A stretch of 64,000 nt of DNA from Rhodobacter sp. Its GTDB lineage: Bacteria; Pseudomonadota; Alphaproteobacteria; Rhodobacterales; Rhodobacteraceae. A program made the translations under genes and the position numbers. The stretch covers positions 434,001-498,000 of the forward strand of contig JAIXUH010000026.1 of the NCBI GenBank assembly GCA_027484145.1. The letters are read 5' to 3'. Position 1 is the first letter of the stretch; each line of letters begins with the position of its first letter. Under the pieces are notes generated by a model that was given only the letters and a program-made list of their open reading frames with translations, did not search any database and was not told where the DNA came from. Shown here in pieces: positions 1,295 through 30,083 of the stretch.

Positions 1295-2470
1295 CTAAGC
1301 CCCCTTTGTGACATACCGTGCAATGCGGGTCGCGGCCTCGACCATCGCGCAATCGGGTTGCGTCAGGCTGATGCGCAACCAGCCCGCCAGACCCTGCCCA
1401 AAACTTTCGCCCGGCATGGTGGCGACGCTTTCCGCCTCGAGCAGGCCAAGCGCGAAGACTTCGCCCGACAGGCCCGTGCTGCGGATATCCAGCAGGGCAA
1501 ACATCCCGGCGTCAGGCTGGTGCACCTTGAGCCCCGCCACACCGTCCAGCCGTTCGGCCAAGATGGCGGCACGGGCGCGGAACCGCATCGCCATGTCTGC
1601 CGCAACTTCGGACGGTTGCGCGACGGCCAGTGCGGTGGCGTCGGCGATGAAGGGCTGGTTACCGAACAGCATGGTTTCCGCCAGCGGCAGCGCCCGGTCG
1701 ATAAAGGCGGAAGGCCCCACGCACCAGCCAGAGCGAAACCCCGGCGCGGCATGGGATTTTGAAATGGACGCGGCCACCACGACCCGGTCGGCGAGGGCCG
1801 CGTCATCCATGGGTGAGGCGAAGGAGACACCCGGAAACACCAGTTCCTCATATACCTCGTCCGAGATCACCCACAGATCATGCGCGCGCGCAACTTCGCC
1901 AAGGGCGGCAAGGTCAGCCGGGGTCAGAACCGCCCCCGTGGGGTTATGTGGGCTGTTCAGGAACAGCACCCGCGACCGGGGTGTGATGCGTGCCGTCACA
2001 TCGGCCGCCTGCATGCGAAAGCCATGCGCGGGGTTCAGGGGCACTGGCACCATGCTGGCCCCGGTGGACCGGATCAGCCCCTCATAGGTCGCATACATCG
2101 GATCGCCGACCAGCACTTCGTCGCCGGCGGCGACAAGCGCGGTCAGCACGGTGTAAAGCACCGTCTGAGTGCCGGGCAGGCACAGGAACTGGTCCGGCCC
2201 GATGCTGCGCCCGCGCCGCGCCGAATAACGTGCCGCCAAGGCCCGCAGCAACGCCGGTTCGCCCCGCCCATTGGAATAGCCGGTCCGCCCGCCATGCATG
2301 GCGCGCGTTGCCGCCTCGACCAACGACTCTTGCGGCGGCACATCGGGTTCGCCAATGGTCAATTCCAGAATGGCGCGGCCCTGTGCCCGCAGCGCCCGCG
2401 CGCGGGCATGCACAGCCCACTTTGCGCCGCCAAGGCCAGCCAGACGTTCGGTGACAGGAGCGTACTTCAT
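1295..2470 (-). CDS. Pyridoxal-phosphate aminotransferase, AruH-like (arginine:pyruvate transaminase)
   Basis: A fold-type I class I/II aminotransferase of 391 residues, normal length for the family. Visible landmarks are the N-terminal LTIGEPD, the YATYEGLI segment, LNSPHNPTGA with the conserved Asn, ISDEVYEEL with the PLP-binding Asp and Tyr, and the Schiff-base lysine K238 in SISKSHAAPGFRSGW. The SKSHA stretch and overall pattern match my memory of Pseudomonas AruH, which transaminates L-arginine to 2-ketoarginine. The start was set at 2470 because its ATG overlaps the stop of the upstream TetR gene as TGATG, an arrangement that couples translation; longer in-frame extensions would run deep into that gene. 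Aspartate or aromatic aminotransferase activity cannot be excluded from sequence alone. Confidence 0.8.
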   Translation of the reverse strand: MKYAPVTERLAGLGGAKWAVHARARALRAQGRAILELTIGEPDVPPQESLVEAATRAMHGGRTGYSNGRGEPALLRALAARYSARRGRSIGPDQFLCLPGTQTVLYTVLTALVAAGDEVLVGDPMYATYEGLIRSTGASMVPVPLNPAHGFRMQAADVTARITPRSRVLFLNSPHNPTGAVLTPADLAALGEVARAHDLWVISDEVYEELVFPGVSFASPMDDAALADRVVVAASISKSHAAPGFRSGWCVGPSAFIDRALPLAETMLFGNQPFIADATALAVAQPSEVAADMAMRFRARAAILAERLDGVAGLKVHQPDAGMFALLDIRSTGLSGEVFALGLLEAESVATMPGESFGQGLAGWLRISLTQPDCAMVEAATRIARYVTKGA

Positions 2471-25465: not shown

Positions 25466-27136
25466 GTGACCAGCGTCTCGATCTCGATGGTGCGCAACGA
25501 ACAGGACATCATCGAACCGTTTTTGCGTCATCATGCGGCTCTGGTCGACGTGATGGTCGTGCTGGACAATCGTTCGTCGGATGCGACGCGCCAGATCATG
25601 GTTTCGGTCGCGCGCGCGCTTGGCAATATCGTCATCGCCGATGTGCCAGATGCGGGCTACAACCAGTCGGAAATCATGACACGCGCCTTGCAGCATGTGC
25701 AGGGCGCGGCCTTGGCCGAGTATGTCTTTTTCCTCGATGGCGACGAATTCCTGCCCTTTGTCGATCGGGCAGCGCTCTCGCGCCACTTGGCCGGGGTGCC
25801 CAAGGGGGGTGTCGGTCTGATGCCGTGGTCGACGTTCCTGCCAGACCCAGATCTGCCCGAAGAGGTAGAGCCAGAGCCGCTGCGCCGCATGACCTTTCGG
25901 CGCAAGGTGGAAGCGCCGCTGTATTACAAGGCGGTCTATCGAGCCCATGGCGGCCTCGATGCGGGCGTGACGGTCGAGCAGGGCAATCACCACCTGCGCG
26001 ATGCCTTTTGCAAGGCACTACCATCTGTCGTACTCGCAGATGTGCCGTTGCGACATTTTCCCCTGCGGTCCACCGAACAACTGGCGGCCAAGGGTGTGGT
26101 GGGGTGGCTGGCCAATCAGGAGCGCGCGGCCGGTCCGTCGCAGGACACAGCGGCCTATCAGTGGAAGCGGTTGCACGATCTGGTACAGGATGGCAAACGG
26201 CCTGACCGCGCCGAACTCGCGGCCGAAGCGCTGCGCTACGCGCAAACCGGCACGCCAGGGAATTTCGCCGAGGGTGCGCTGCGCGCCGACCATGGCATCC
26301 GACCAGACCGCAGCTTTTCCGATGGCCGTTTTGCCGCCGCCGACCGTTTGATTGCCGAGGCACAGGCCGGGGCGGGCGGTGCCCTCGGCGCCCCATTCGT
26401 GCTGCCGCCACCGCCCGCCGGGCAGGACGCCGGGGCACAGATCAGCAATGCCTTCCATGGGGCATGGCATTGGGATTTCCTGTTTCTCGATGTGCCGCCG
26501 ATCCGCTTTGCCATTGACCGTTTTGCACCCCGATCGGTTTTGGATCTGGGCTGCGGCAATGGACTTTATCCGCTTCTCTATCAGCATCTGGGCGTGCCGG
26601 ATGTGCTGGGCGTTGACGGAATCGAACCAGAGGCCACGGTGCTGACCCCCGGCACCTATTGCAAGACCGACCTGCAACAGCCCTTTGACGCGGGGCGGAA
26701 ATTTGATCTGGTGATCTGCCTTGAGGTGGTCGAACACCTGTTTCCGGCGGCGACCGACACCATGTTTGACACTATCGCCCGGCATGCGGCCGATACGATT
26801 CTCTTTTCGATGGCTGAACCGGGGCAGCCGGGCAACGGGCATATCAACTGCCTGTCGATGAGCGATGTGCTGGACCATTGGGCGCGGCGCGGCTGGCAGC
26901 CTGACCTTGCCATGACACTGGGGATGCGGGCGCTGTCGTCGATGTCGTGGTTCCGGCGCAATATCGTGATCCTGCACCACACCGGCGAAACCGGCGAAAC
27001 TCCGGCGGCGGCGGCGCTGCGGCAGATCGGGCGGTTGCCCTATGTCTGGTATAATCAGGCTGCCGGCCAGCGCGAAACCGCCTTTGATGAGCCGTTTCCG
27101 GATATCAAGCACGGCTACGGTCTGCGCCACGCGTGA
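25466..27136 (+). CDS. Glycosyltransferase family 2-like and class I methyltransferase fusion
   Basis: A 556-residue two-domain protein. Residues 1-280 look like a Glyco_tranf_2_4 domain: SISMVRNEQDIIEPFLRHHA, the nucleotide-binding MVVLDNRSSDATRQIM, and the metal-binding acidic motif FFLDGDEFLPF near residue 90. Residues about 340-500 form a SAM-dependent methyltransferase with motif I VLDLGCGNGLYPLLY near residue 358, followed by VLGVDGIEPEA and LVICLEVVEHLFPAATD. The product may be a methylated glycan or glycosylated surface molecule. There is no signal or transmembrane segment. The start is GTG with AGGGGG five bases upstream. No polysaccharide genes are adjacent, so the acceptor is unknown. 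Confidence 0.8.
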   Translation: MTSVSISMVRNEQDIIEPFLRHHAALVDVMVVLDNRSSDATRQIMVSVARALGNIVIADVPDAGYNQSEIMTRALQHVQGAALAEYVFFLDGDEFLPFVDRAALSRHLAGVPKGGVGLMPWSTFLPDPDLPEEVEPEPLRRMTFRRKVEAPLYYKAVYRAHGGLDAGVTVEQGNHHLRDAFCKALPSVVLADVPLRHFPLRSTEQLAAKGVVGWLANQERAAGPSQDTAAYQWKRLHDLVQDGKRPDRAELAAEALRYAQTGTPGNFAEGALRADHGIRPDRSFSDGRFAAADRLIAEAQAGAGGALGAPFVLPPPPAGQDAGAQISNAFHGAWHWDFLFLDVPPIRFAIDRFAPRSVLDLGCGNGLYPLLYQHLGVPDVLGVDGIEPEATVLTPGTYCKTDLQQPFDAGRKFDLVICLEVVEHLFPAATDTMFDTIARHAADTILFSMAEPGQPGNGHINCLSMSDVLDHWARRGWQPDLAMTLGMRALSSMSWFRRNIVILHHTGETGETPAAAALRQIGRLPYVWYNQAAGQRETAFDEPFPDIKHGYGLRHA

Positions 27137-27178
27137 TGACCGCAGCCCACGGCACAGGCCGGGGCTGCGCAGCGCGGC

Positions 27179-27346
27179 TTACGATGCGTCTCGGTCGTTG
27201 ACAGTCTTCAGACCGCTGACGGGCGCGGATTTCTGCCGCCGCACGATCGGCTTGTTCAGGGCGTTCGCCTAGGCCTTTACGTTGGCCAACACCGGGCCGG
27301 TGTCCGCCGACTGGCCCGTGGCGCTGTACCCGTCTTCCTTGATCCG
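27179..27346 (-). pseudogene. Decayed duplicate of the leuA 3' end
   Basis: Read on the minus strand in one frame this gives RIKEDGYSATGQSADTGPVL, ANVKA, a TAG stop, then ANALNKPIVRRQKSAP and a short divergent tail. The authentic LeuA C-terminus (28482-28647) reads RLEEDGRIVTGQSADTDTIV, ASAKAYVNALNKLIVRRQKS. About 32 of 54 aligned positions are identical with no gap, and the 21 bases centred on TTTCTGCCGCCGCACGATC are unchanged between copies. The stop replaces the Tyr codon of leuA. The upper half of the relic is in frame with and forms the C-terminus of the DUF1127 gene; the lower half follows its stop. Confidence 0.85.
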
Positions 27347-27472
27347 CCCCTGCACACGGTCGCGCAGATCGTCGCGCGGCAACCCCATGTCAGCAAGAAG
27401 CCGGTCGTCCAGCCTTTGCAACTGCACCAGCGTGCCTTCGGTCGCCCACCGTCGTTTCAGCAATTTCCACAT
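27269..27472 (-). CDS. Small DUF1127 protein with a LeuA-derived tail
   Basis: A 67-residue protein. The first 40 or so residues, MWKLLKRRWATEGTLVQLQR and LDDRLLADMGLPRDDLRDRV, match the DUF1127 (YjiS-like) pattern, arginine-rich helices seen in small proteins that bind RNA or affect phosphate and carbon metabolism. The last 25 residues are not DUF1127 but a decayed LeuA C-terminal segment in frame. The start at 27472 has GGAGG five bases upstream; ATG 27484 is also in frame. It diverges from a LysR gene with a symmetric box between them. Whether the chimeric tail matters is unknown. Confidence 0.7.
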   Translation of the reverse strand: MWKLLKRRWATEGTLVQLQRLDDRLLADMGLPRDDLRDRVQGRIKEDGYSATGQSADTGPVLANVKA

Positions 27473-27521
27473 GGCCGCCTCCATTCTTGAAGGCCCCCTT
27501 TTGCCACACAGTCGTTTCTGC

Positions 27522-27538
27522 GATAATCTGACATTATC
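27522..27538. promoter_or_regulatory. Symmetric LysR-type box between DUF1127 and lysR
   Basis: GATAAT-CTGAC-ATTATC is a perfect six-base inverted repeat with a five-base spacer and fits the T-N11-A form of LysR-family binding sites. It lies 28 bases before the LysR start and 49 bases before the DUF1127 start, the usual place for an autoregulating LysR protein that also controls a divergent gene. Binding is inferred. Confidence 0.5.
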
Positions 27539-27566
27539 AGGATGCCTTTTGAAGCAAGGGTAATGA

Positions 27567-28466
27567 ATGCGTGGCAGTGAATTCTCTGAGCTTCGGGCCT
27601 TCGCGGCCGTGATCCGACATCGCAGTTTTACCCGTGCGGCGCAGCATCTTGGCGTGTCGCCCTCGGCACTCAGTCAACTGATCCGCGGCCTCGAAGATCG
27701 GCTTGGCCAACGTCTGTTGAACCGTACCACCCGCAGTGTGGCGCCAAGTCATGCCGGTACGGCGCTGGCTGAACGGCTTCTGCCGGTTCTGGATGACTTG
27801 AATGGTGTGATCGACAGTGCCTTTGCCGCAGGGGGAGGGGTGTCGGGCCCCCTGCGCCTCAACGTTGTCACCGTGGCGATGACCAAGCTGGCACTCGCGG
27901 TGCCCGGCTTTCTGGCCCGCTATCCCCGGGTCACGCTGGAAGTCGAGGTGAATGACGCCCTTGTCGATATCGTGGCACAGGGCTTTGATGCGGGCATCCG
28001 TCTGGCCGAGCGGCTGGAAGCCGACATGATTGCGGTACCCTTTGGCGGCCCCTTGCGGATGGCGGTCGTGGCAGCACCGTCCTATCTGGCCAAACGAATG
28101 CCGCCGCTGCATCCCCGCGATCTGGAACGGCATGAATGCCTCGTCTCGCTGGCCCCTTCGACCGGGGCGCCCTACCGCTGGGAGTTTGACAAGGACGGCG
28201 TCGCCCTACGGGTTCTGGTGACAGGCCGACTGGTGGGGTCCGATGTGCGCCTCCGCCTTGCGGCCTGTGAAGCTGGACTGGGGATTGGCTATTTCTTTGA
28301 AACCGAGGTGGCCGACCTGCTGGCATCGCGGACACTGATGCGCGTGCTGGAGGATTGGACGCCCCCGTTTCCAGGAGCGCATGTCTACTATCCTAGCCGC
28401 CGCAATCCACCGCCACCTTTGCGTGCCTTCATCGACCACTTCAAAGGCATGGCGCGGGGCACATGA
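27567..28466 (+). CDS. LysR-family transcriptional regulator
   Basis: A 299-residue LTTR. The N-terminal winged HTH is clear (ELRAFAAVIRHRSFTRAAQH, LGVSPSALSQLIRGLEDRLG, QRLLNRTTRSVAPS), and the C-terminal substrate-binding domain of the type 2 periplasmic fold runs from about residue 90 (GPLRLNVVTVAMTKLALAVP) to the end. The cluster to which it belongs resembles the PtxR/AaeR-like group that responds to small acids or aromatic compounds, but no specific ligand can be named. It is convergent with leuA, ending 15 bases from the leuA stop codon. Confidence 0.92.
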   Translation: MRGSEFSELRAFAAVIRHRSFTRAAQHLGVSPSALSQLIRGLEDRLGQRLLNRTTRSVAPSHAGTALAERLLPVLDDLNGVIDSAFAAGGGVSGPLRLNVVTVAMTKLALAVPGFLARYPRVTLEVEVNDALVDIVAQGFDAGIRLAERLEADMIAVPFGGPLRMAVVAAPSYLAKRMPPLHPRDLERHECLVSLAPSTGAPYRWEFDKDGVALRVLVTGRLVGSDVRLRLAACEAGLGIGYFFETEVADLLASRTLMRVLEDWTPPFPGAHVYYPSRRNPPPPLRAFIDHFKGMARGT

Positions 28467-28481
28467 CCCCGCGCCGGGCCG

Positions 28482-30083
28482 TCATTCGCCGTGGTAGCTT
28501 ACCGTTTTCACATCGCTGCCAGGGGCCGATTTCTGCCGCCGCACGATCAGCTTGTTCAGCGCGTTCACGTAAGCCTTGGCACTGGCCACGATCGTATCGG
28601 TATCGGCCGATTGCCCGGTCACGATGCGGCCATCTTCTTCCAGCCGGACGGTGACGGTGGCTTGCGCATCGGTGCCTTCGGTGACGGCGGCCACCTGATA
28701 GACCTGCAGCCGTGCCTTGTGCGGAAACAGCATCTTGACGCAGTTGAACGCCGCATCGACCGGGCCATCACCTGTGGCGTCGATCACGTGGTCCACGCCC
28801 TCGATGGTCAGAGTCATCTCTGCCTCTTGCGGGCCATCGGTGCCGCAAACCACGCGCAGACGTTTCAACTGCATGTGGTCATGCGCGTCCATCGTTGCCT
28901 CATCGGCCACCAGCGCGATCAGGTCGTCGTCGTAGACTTCCTTCTTGCGGTCGGCGAGCGCTTTGAACCGCACGAACACGTCGTTCAACTGGTTGTCGGC
29001 CAGATCATAGCCCAGTTCTTTCATCTTGGACCGCAGGGCGGCGCGGCCCGAATGCTTGCCCATGGCGATGTTCTTTTGCGTCAGCCCGATATCTTCGGGG
29101 CGCATGATCTCGAACGTCTCGACGTTCTTCAGCACGCCGTCCTGATGGATGCCGCTTTCGTGCAGAAAGGCGTTTTTGCCGACGATGGCCTTGTTGAATT
29201 GCACCGGAAAGCCAGAGACCGCCGCCACGCGCCGCGACAGGTTCATGATCTTGGTCGTGTCGATCCGGGTCTGGAACGGCATGATGTCGTTGCGGACCTT
29301 CATCGCCATCACAACCTCTTCCAAGGCAGTGTTGCCAGCACGTTCGCCCAAGCCATTGATCGTGCACTCAATCTGCCGGGCGCCCGCCTCAACTGCCGCA
29401 AGCGCGTTGGCCGTCGCCATGCCCAGATCATTGTGGCAATGGGTTGCAAAGATGATGGTATCTGCGCCCGGCACCCGTTCCAGCAACATGCGGATCAGGT
29501 CGGCACTTTCGCGCGGGGCGGTATAGCCCACCGTATCGGGGATGTTGATGGTGGTCGCACCCGCCTTGATGGCGATTTCCACCACGCGGCACAGGTAATC
29601 ATGTTCGGTCCGCGTGGCATCCATGGGTGACCATTGCACGTTGTCGCACAGGTTGCGGGCATGAGTGACCGTGTCGTGAATCCGCTCCGCCATCTGGTCC
29701 ATGTCGAGGTTCGGAATGGCGCGGTGCAGCGGCGAGGTGCCGATGAAGGTGTGGATGCGGGGCGACGGGGCGTGCTTCACCGCCTCCCAGCAGCGGTCGA
29801 TGTCCTTGAAGTTGGCCCGTGCCAGACCGCAGATCGTGCTGTTCTTGGCACGGCGCGAGATTTCGGACACGGCGGCGAAATCACCCTCGCTGGCAATGGG
29901 AAATCCGGCCTCGATCACGTCGACGCCCATTTCATCCAGCAGGCTGGCAATCTCCAGCTTTTCGTCATGGGTCATGGTGGCGCCAGGGCTTTGTTCGCCA
30001 TCGCGCAGGGTGGTGTCAAAGATGATGACACGCGGTTGATTTTTCGCCTGTGCGGCACCGGTCGGCGTGCGGGTATCGGTCAT
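28482..30083 (-). CDS. leuA: 2-isopropylmalate synthase
   Basis: A 533-residue enzyme that condenses acetyl-CoA with 2-ketoisovalerate, the first committed step to leucine. The HMGL-like barrel has the metal- and substrate-binding FDTTLRDGEQSPGATMTHDE, the metal HCHNDLGMATANALAAVEAG and NGLGERAGNTALEEVVMAMK; the C-terminal regulatory domain (LeuA_dimer), from about residue 400, ends in TGQSADTDTIVASAKAYVNA. Leucine inhibits through this domain. It is preceded by a leader peptide with seven Leu codons, pointing to leucine-dependent control. The 3' end has a decayed twin at 27179-27346. Confidence 0.96.
   Translation of the reverse strand: MTDTRTPTGAAQAKNQPRVIIFDTTLRDGEQSPGATMTHDEKLEIASLLDEMGVDVIEAGFPIASEGDFAAVSEISRRAKNSTICGLARANFKDIDRCWEAVKHAPSPRIHTFIGTSPLHRAIPNLDMDQMAERIHDTVTHARNLCDNVQWSPMDATRTEHDYLCRVVEIAIKAGATTINIPDTVGYTAPRESADLIRMLLERVPGADTIIFATHCHNDLGMATANALAAVEAGARQIECTINGLGERAGNTALEEVVMAMKVRNDIMPFQTRIDTTKIMNLSRRVAAVSGFPVQFNKAIVGKNAFLHESGIHQDGVLKNVETFEIMRPEDIGLTQKNIAMGKHSGRAALRSKMKELGYDLADNQLNDVFVRFKALADRKKEVYDDDLIALVADEATMDAHDHMQLKRLRVVCGTDGPQEAEMTLTIEGVDHVIDATGDGPVDAAFNCVKMLFPHKARLQVYQVAAVTEGTDAQATVTVRLEEDGRIVTGQSADTDTIVASAKAYVNALNKLIVRRQKSAPGSDVKTVSYHGE

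Follow-up and report, generated by a model that had tools for sequence, protein, structure and literature searches.

In this study we describe a partial, decayed copy of the 3' end of leuA, the gene for 2-isopropylmalate synthase, that now forms the last part of a small DUF1127 gene in Rhodobacter sp. (assembly GCA_027484145.1, contig JAIXUH010000026.1, positions 434,001 to 498,000 of the forward strand; these 64,000 nucleotides are the window to which all coordinates refer). Judged by the alignment, the homology of this relic to leuA is beyond doubt. The source of the duplicated tail is an intact leuA of 533 aa at 28482..30083 on the minus strand, assigned by NCBIfam NF002087 (852 bits against a cutoff of 729) and by the Pfam domains HMGL-like and LeuA_dimer. 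The relic lies 1.2 kb downstream of it at 27179..27346, also on the minus strand, and comprises 55 codons and a TAA. Its positions 27193-27337 align with 28493-28637 of leuA over 145 nt without a gap at 73.8% nucleotide identity (E 6e-21), and 32 of the last 54 leuA residues are matched, again ungapped, as the original prediction had read from the letters. The local alignment score of the pair is 100, compared with at most 36 when the relic stretch was shuffled 1000 times at the mononucleotide level, so that the comparison with shuffled sequence proposed at the time speaks for the duplicate. That the likeness arose by chance has a negligible probability given this E value, the ungapped match on the same strand and the shuffled scores. 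Many copies of the leuA tail were likewise ruled out: with the relic DNA as query at E 0.001, two places were found in the own genome, the relic itself and leuA, hence there is one extra copy only. A Tyr codon, TAC in leuA, is an in-frame TAG in the relic (27269-27271), a change that had been noted correctly, and it is this TAG that closes the DUF1127 open reading frame (ORF). At the far end the leuA stop has been lost; the frame runs one codon beyond its position and ends at the TAA.

The upstream part of the relic is the C-terminus of the DUF1127 protein, in agreement with the original prediction, and the start of the gene could be refined. The chimeric ORF occupies 27269..27472 on the minus strand and would encode 67 aa from the conserved start or 71 aa from an ATG at 27484. 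The second ATG, at 27472, is the likely start since it follows a GGAGG and recurs, together with that GGAGG, in two relatives, Tabrizicola aquatica (locus L037) and an alphaproteobacterial metagenome-assembled genome (MAG; locus L038). Residues 1-42 are DUF1127 and the remaining 25 residues, 43-67, are of leuA origin. PF06568 matches residues 6-41 with 29 bits against a gathering cutoff of 23.3; in NCBIfam no family was matched by the chimeric ORF at E 0.01. The chimera has the usual length of a DUF1127 protein, and its variable tail derives from leuA. The domain itself looks constrained: over 42 codons dN/dS is 0.24 between the own genome and Tabrizicola, 0.29 between the own genome and the MAG and 0.31 between Tabrizicola and the MAG (dN 0.25-0.32 and dS 0.91-1.09 for the three pairs). 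This suggests purifying selection in the own lineage as in the lineages of the two relatives, with recent relaxation being possible. Because the domain looks constrained, the 67-aa chimeric protein is probably expressed.

The age of the copy can be read from its substitutions. We polarised the changes with the relic, the own leuA and the leuA of another genus member, G005, over 165 sites. There are 31 changes found in the relic only, distributed 7/14/10 over the codon positions, 12 found in the own leuA only (1/0/11) and eight found in G005 only (2/1/5), with five left unassigned. The third-position share differs between relic and own leuA (Fisher p 0.0006): at 10 of 31 the relic agrees with one third (binomial p 1.0), as expected without coding constraint. 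The rate in the relic, 31/165 or 0.19 per site, matches the third-position rate of the own leuA, 11/55 or 0.20, hence constraint was lost at about the time when the two copies split. The copy thus looks old and seems never to have been constrained as a leuA end. Within the relic, 20 changes fall in the 75 nt before the TAG, which are translated, and 11 in the 90 nt after it (Fisher p 0.03). As the translated part changed more than the untranslated one, there is no hint of a conserved tail, and the substitution pattern of the 25 translated leuA-derived codons shows no sign of selection on the tail. By identity the tail nearest to the relic is that of G005 (121/165), followed by the own leuA (117/165); by tree path it is the own leuA (0.54), then G005 (0.59), without branch support. 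Placing the relic by tree was abandoned since no branch was starred. Gene conversion between the copies is not favoured either: the conserved run of codons 28-41 holds two of the 12 changes of the own leuA, all of which are by definition absent from the relic.

Truncated gene duplicates and pseudogene fragments are known in bacteria. Like those, the relic derives from the 3' part of a housekeeping gene nearby and has changed free of codon constraint; unlike those, its first part is read here as the tail of another gene. The leuA scrap in the DUF1127 gene is a clear fossil of gene shuffling, ordinary in kind, and the fusion opens no new class of system. Its value lies in being a clean and roughly datable case of a small bacterial protein whose C-terminal tail was replaced by a fragment of the gene next door, inside a variable gap beside a conserved gene. 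It is also a warning for annotation, as the LeuA-like tail of this DUF1127 protein has no proven meaning.

Between the leuA 3' end and its decayed duplicate lies a LysR-family regulator gene (27567..28466, plus strand, 299 aa); it diverges from the DUF1127 gene and converges with leuA, and its interposed position had been recognised before. By position the order is glycosyltransferase-methyltransferase gene (+), relic with DUF1127 (-), LysR (+) and leuA (-). The LysR assignment rests on both of its domains (PF00126 with 75.2 bits, cutoff 26.6; PF03466 with 118.6 bits, cutoff 28), and among the NCBIfam matches listed (25 of 53 families) none is above its cutoff.

Where else does this arrangement occur? 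A DNA search with the relic and DUF1127 stretch in 61 genomes (the own and 60 relatives) gave matches in 20, and in 19 relatives there was one tail-length match each, lying in leuA; G009 had an additional 22-base match on another contig. In the other 41 of the 61 genomes no match was found, leuA included, so that a diverged relic could have been missed there. The relic stretch gave no match in 72,556 plasmid records, a set from which records near the own genome may be absent. We also scanned the genome_contigs collection (84,980 species genomes) with exact 8-residue ORF patterns, which detect close relatives only. It yielded five confirmed DUF1127 loci, and the search for LeuA-like tails on other DUF1127 proteins, suggested as a way to refute the reading, returned none (0/5). 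LysR, leuA and mreB stand alongside DUF1127, within the stretch read, only in Tabrizicola aquatica and the MAG, where the order is leuA, at least one further gene, LysR, DUF1127, two more genes and mreB. The pair of LysR and DUF1127 can therefore stand near leuA without a leuA copy. The Tabrizicola protein has 64 aa from the shared start and that of the MAG 67 aa from an upstream ATG, and their tails are unlike each other and unlike LeuA. As a DUF1127 query in 101 genomes, the ORF matched six at E 0.001, five of them weakly (2e-4 to 1e-3), and none was accepted as an ortholog. In Pelagimonas (L039) three DUF1127 matches (6001, 6479 and 6928) lie close together in about 1 kb and make up a small cluster.

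The own LysR is 77% identical to that of Tabrizicola and 72% to that of the MAG. None of the 15 other genus members, five of whose genomes are only 82-87% complete, yielded an ortholog; G010 holds a paralog of 42%. In 394 family genomes, mostly one per genus and with six candidates scored per genome, the own genome alone matches at E 1e-100; Tabrizicola aquatica evidently lies outside this sample. The absence of an ortholog from the 15 other members leaves room for an old insertion of the LysR/DUF1127 pair. A recent import from a Tabrizicola-like donor is not favoured: LysR dS between the own genome and Tabrizicola is 1.24, within the range of neighbouring genes (0.83-0.99 for leuA, mreB and mreC; 1.40 for a nearby SDR gene), and GC3 of the own LysR (0.68; four other own genes 0.71-0.79) is unlike that of Tabrizicola (0.84). 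Tabrizicola and the MAG are sisters in the mreB-mreC tree (100/100), and the LysR identities among the three loci fit this tree poorly. At 75% aa identity and dS 0.79, the LysR genes of these two are more diverged than their leuA, mreB and mreC (dS 0.43-0.52), a side observation that hints at exchange of the LysR/DUF1127 unit among relatives.

The region between the divergent LysR and DUF1127 genes (27470-27569) is conserved in the three species, with an inverted repeat, a TGGCAAAA block and the GGAGG. In the three-locus alignment the inverted repeat, GATAAT-GTCAG-ATTATC (GATAATGTCAGATTATC), is at 27522..27538 on the minus strand. Allowing up to two mismatches it has one match in the window against 0.01 expected, and its core occurs in one of the 16 genus genomes, the own genome alone. 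Its conservation makes it a candidate LysR operator and/or promoter element, and LysR may control the divergent DUF1127 gene.

As to the origin of the copy, we consider it fairly probable that a partial duplicate of the leuA 3' end replaced the 3' end of DUF1127 through duplication inside the own lineage, which is also the simplest mechanism. A tandem duplication would have begun late in leuA, spanned LysR and ended at about DUF1127 codon 42. The second LysR/DUF1127 copy might then have been lost as the remaining gap between leuA and mreB was exchanged; the glycosyltransferase-methyltransferase gene now stands there. Going by the substitution pattern, the copy was dead on arrival as leuA and has drifted freely, its first 25 codons being read as the C-terminal tail of the DUF1127 protein and the remainder serving as untranslated 3' region. 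Such a tail would be tolerated because DUF1127 tails vary freely among relatives, as in Tabrizicola and the MAG. That the relic shows no excess of third-position changes speaks for near identity of the two copies at the time of the event, which suits a duplication within the lineage, or a one-ended recombination with close kin. Of the routes named in the original prediction, recombination at leuA and tandem duplication followed by loss are both live. What found no support in its stated form is the idea that the presence of LysR and DUF1127 is owed to the duplication: the pair lies in the leuA-mreB gap of Tabrizicola and the MAG without a LeuA tail, and LysR dS is in the range of the neighbours.

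One-ended, homology-facilitated illegitimate recombination is possible, and we regard it as the less probable origin. Here an incoming piece with a leuA 3' end, LysR and the 5' part of DUF1127 would have crossed over in the resident leuA, while its other end met the resident leuA tail in an illegitimate joint, so that this tail was displaced downstream as the later relic. Equally possible would be the mirror image, in which mreB was the anchor and a leuA tail with the glycosyltransferase gene was brought into the DUF1127 3' end. The process is reported to occur in S. pneumoniae, A. baylyi and P. stutzeri and usually to leave 3-10 bp of microhomology at the illegitimate joint (PMC3240628); it has been proposed for Vibrio immunity gene arrays (PMC5361080). 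A 3' piece displaced downstream of gained DNA is its expected trace; our locus differs in being without a demonstrable donor, microhomology or empty site. For a view of the joint, the DUF1127 3' ends of the relatives are too diverged. A single event would account for both the gained unit and the partial duplicate, and the variable leuA-mreB gap together with the confinement of the LysR ortholog to the own genome, in the genus as in the family sample, agrees with it. The LysR identities (75% between Tabrizicola and the MAG, 77% between Tabrizicola and the own genome) hint that the unit may have been exchanged. Window 1440-1600 of the leuA alignment places the own gene closest to G005 (0.90; next 0.83), whereas the short last window, from column 1600, gives 0.67 with G005 and 0.81 with G003. 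Without a third-position excess in the relic, a partner tail that had diverged under selection is unlikely, so the partner must have been close kin, and LysR dS and GC3 carry no sign of recent import from Tabrizicola.

The reading of an in-lineage duplication with an expressed chimera has several points against it. The intermediate state of the tandem duplication was not found, and exchange at one end with close kin would leave a very similar picture. The absence of the LysR/DUF1127 pair from the other genus members searched requires losses or a gain. The polarisation uses three sequences only, the changes in the relic are unevenly spread on the two sides of the TAG, and its third-position states at codons 5, 11 and 12 are those of the majority in other leuA and may be ancestral. 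In the tail tree the 165-nt copy sits in an open fork with no starred branch. As to expression, a consensus scan of 27000-28700 found no sigma-70-type promoter.

The original prediction had further proposed that the chimera may be a new small protein. A normal-length DUF1127 protein with a leuA tail is indeed found, and no finding demonstrates selection of the tail. That the chimera is a selected new protein, its tail giving DUF1127 a new partner or stability, is in our view quite improbable. For it speak the in-frame fusion, the normal length, the conserved promoter region with the GGAGG and the conserved DUF1127 domain; against it, the changes of the relic in the 25 translated codons are distributed 6/6/8 by position and denser than in the untranslated part, and no relative with a leuA tail on DUF1127 was found. 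Slightly more remote still is the thought that the 25-residue piece of the LeuA C-terminus alters DUF1127 binding, for example to LeuA or to the leuA mRNA end, and so made a new small regulator by capture. The unit would rather be a LysR-controlled small regulator in which the leuA tail is a passenger, by analogy with known systems. In Brucella the LysR regulator VtlR is reported to control DUF1127 genes (PMC12595884). That system, too, combines a LysR regulator with small DUF1127 proteins; here, unlike there, the genes stand side by side in divergent orientation and the control is putative. DUF1127 proteins are reported to bind either RNA, as CcaF1 does, or sensor kinases, PhoR among them (PMC12501420). 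CcaF1 (71 aa) and the Agrobacterium DUF1127 set share with our 67-aa protein the single DUF1127 domain, and differ from it in that here the C-terminal tail comes from leuA.

The gap behind leuA is variable in the genus. We located leuA in 15 of the 16 genus genomes, and in 11 members other than the own mreB follows 408 to 2035 nt behind it; since length and intervening ORFs differ among these 11, the gap must be called variable. No mreB was found in G008 and G011, where the contig is short, or in G005, where about 10 kb downstream of leuA were read. By reading of the translations, the gap (loci L042-L055) variously holds a putative secreted esterase-like ORF, which recurs among the members, a transporter-like one, some that are GST/SDR-like, or next to nothing. 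The neighbourhood in G005 (L046) is rearranged. This genome, whose leuA tail is nearest to the relic by identity, was rejected as an empty site for lack of mreB in that stretch.

Convergent with the relic is the glycosyltransferase-methyltransferase ORF (25466..27136, plus strand), whose 556 aa join a glycosyltransferase family 2 and a methyltransferase part (Pfam PF13704 and PF13489); no other genus member was found to carry it. Counting the own genome in both cases, it is present in one of the 61 genomes at E 1e-40 and in two of the 394 family genomes at E 1e-60. The single homolog found in the family sample, with three candidates scored per genome, is that of G167 (49%). Tracing the event via this gene was given up, as neither leuA nor mreB was matched in the 17 kb read of G167.

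Two hairpins were noted. The ORF ends of leuA and LysR are 15 nt apart, and over them lies a strong hairpin (28440..28485; -28.0 and -28.6 kcal/mol, z -3.5 and -4.5) with no T run, at which the terminator scan reported no terminator-like site; it is perhaps a two-way terminator for leuA and LysR. Immediately beyond the relic, at 27130..27182 on the minus strand, there is a hairpin of -28.8 kcal/mol (z -2.2), also with no T run, which is possibly an old leuA 3' hairpin.

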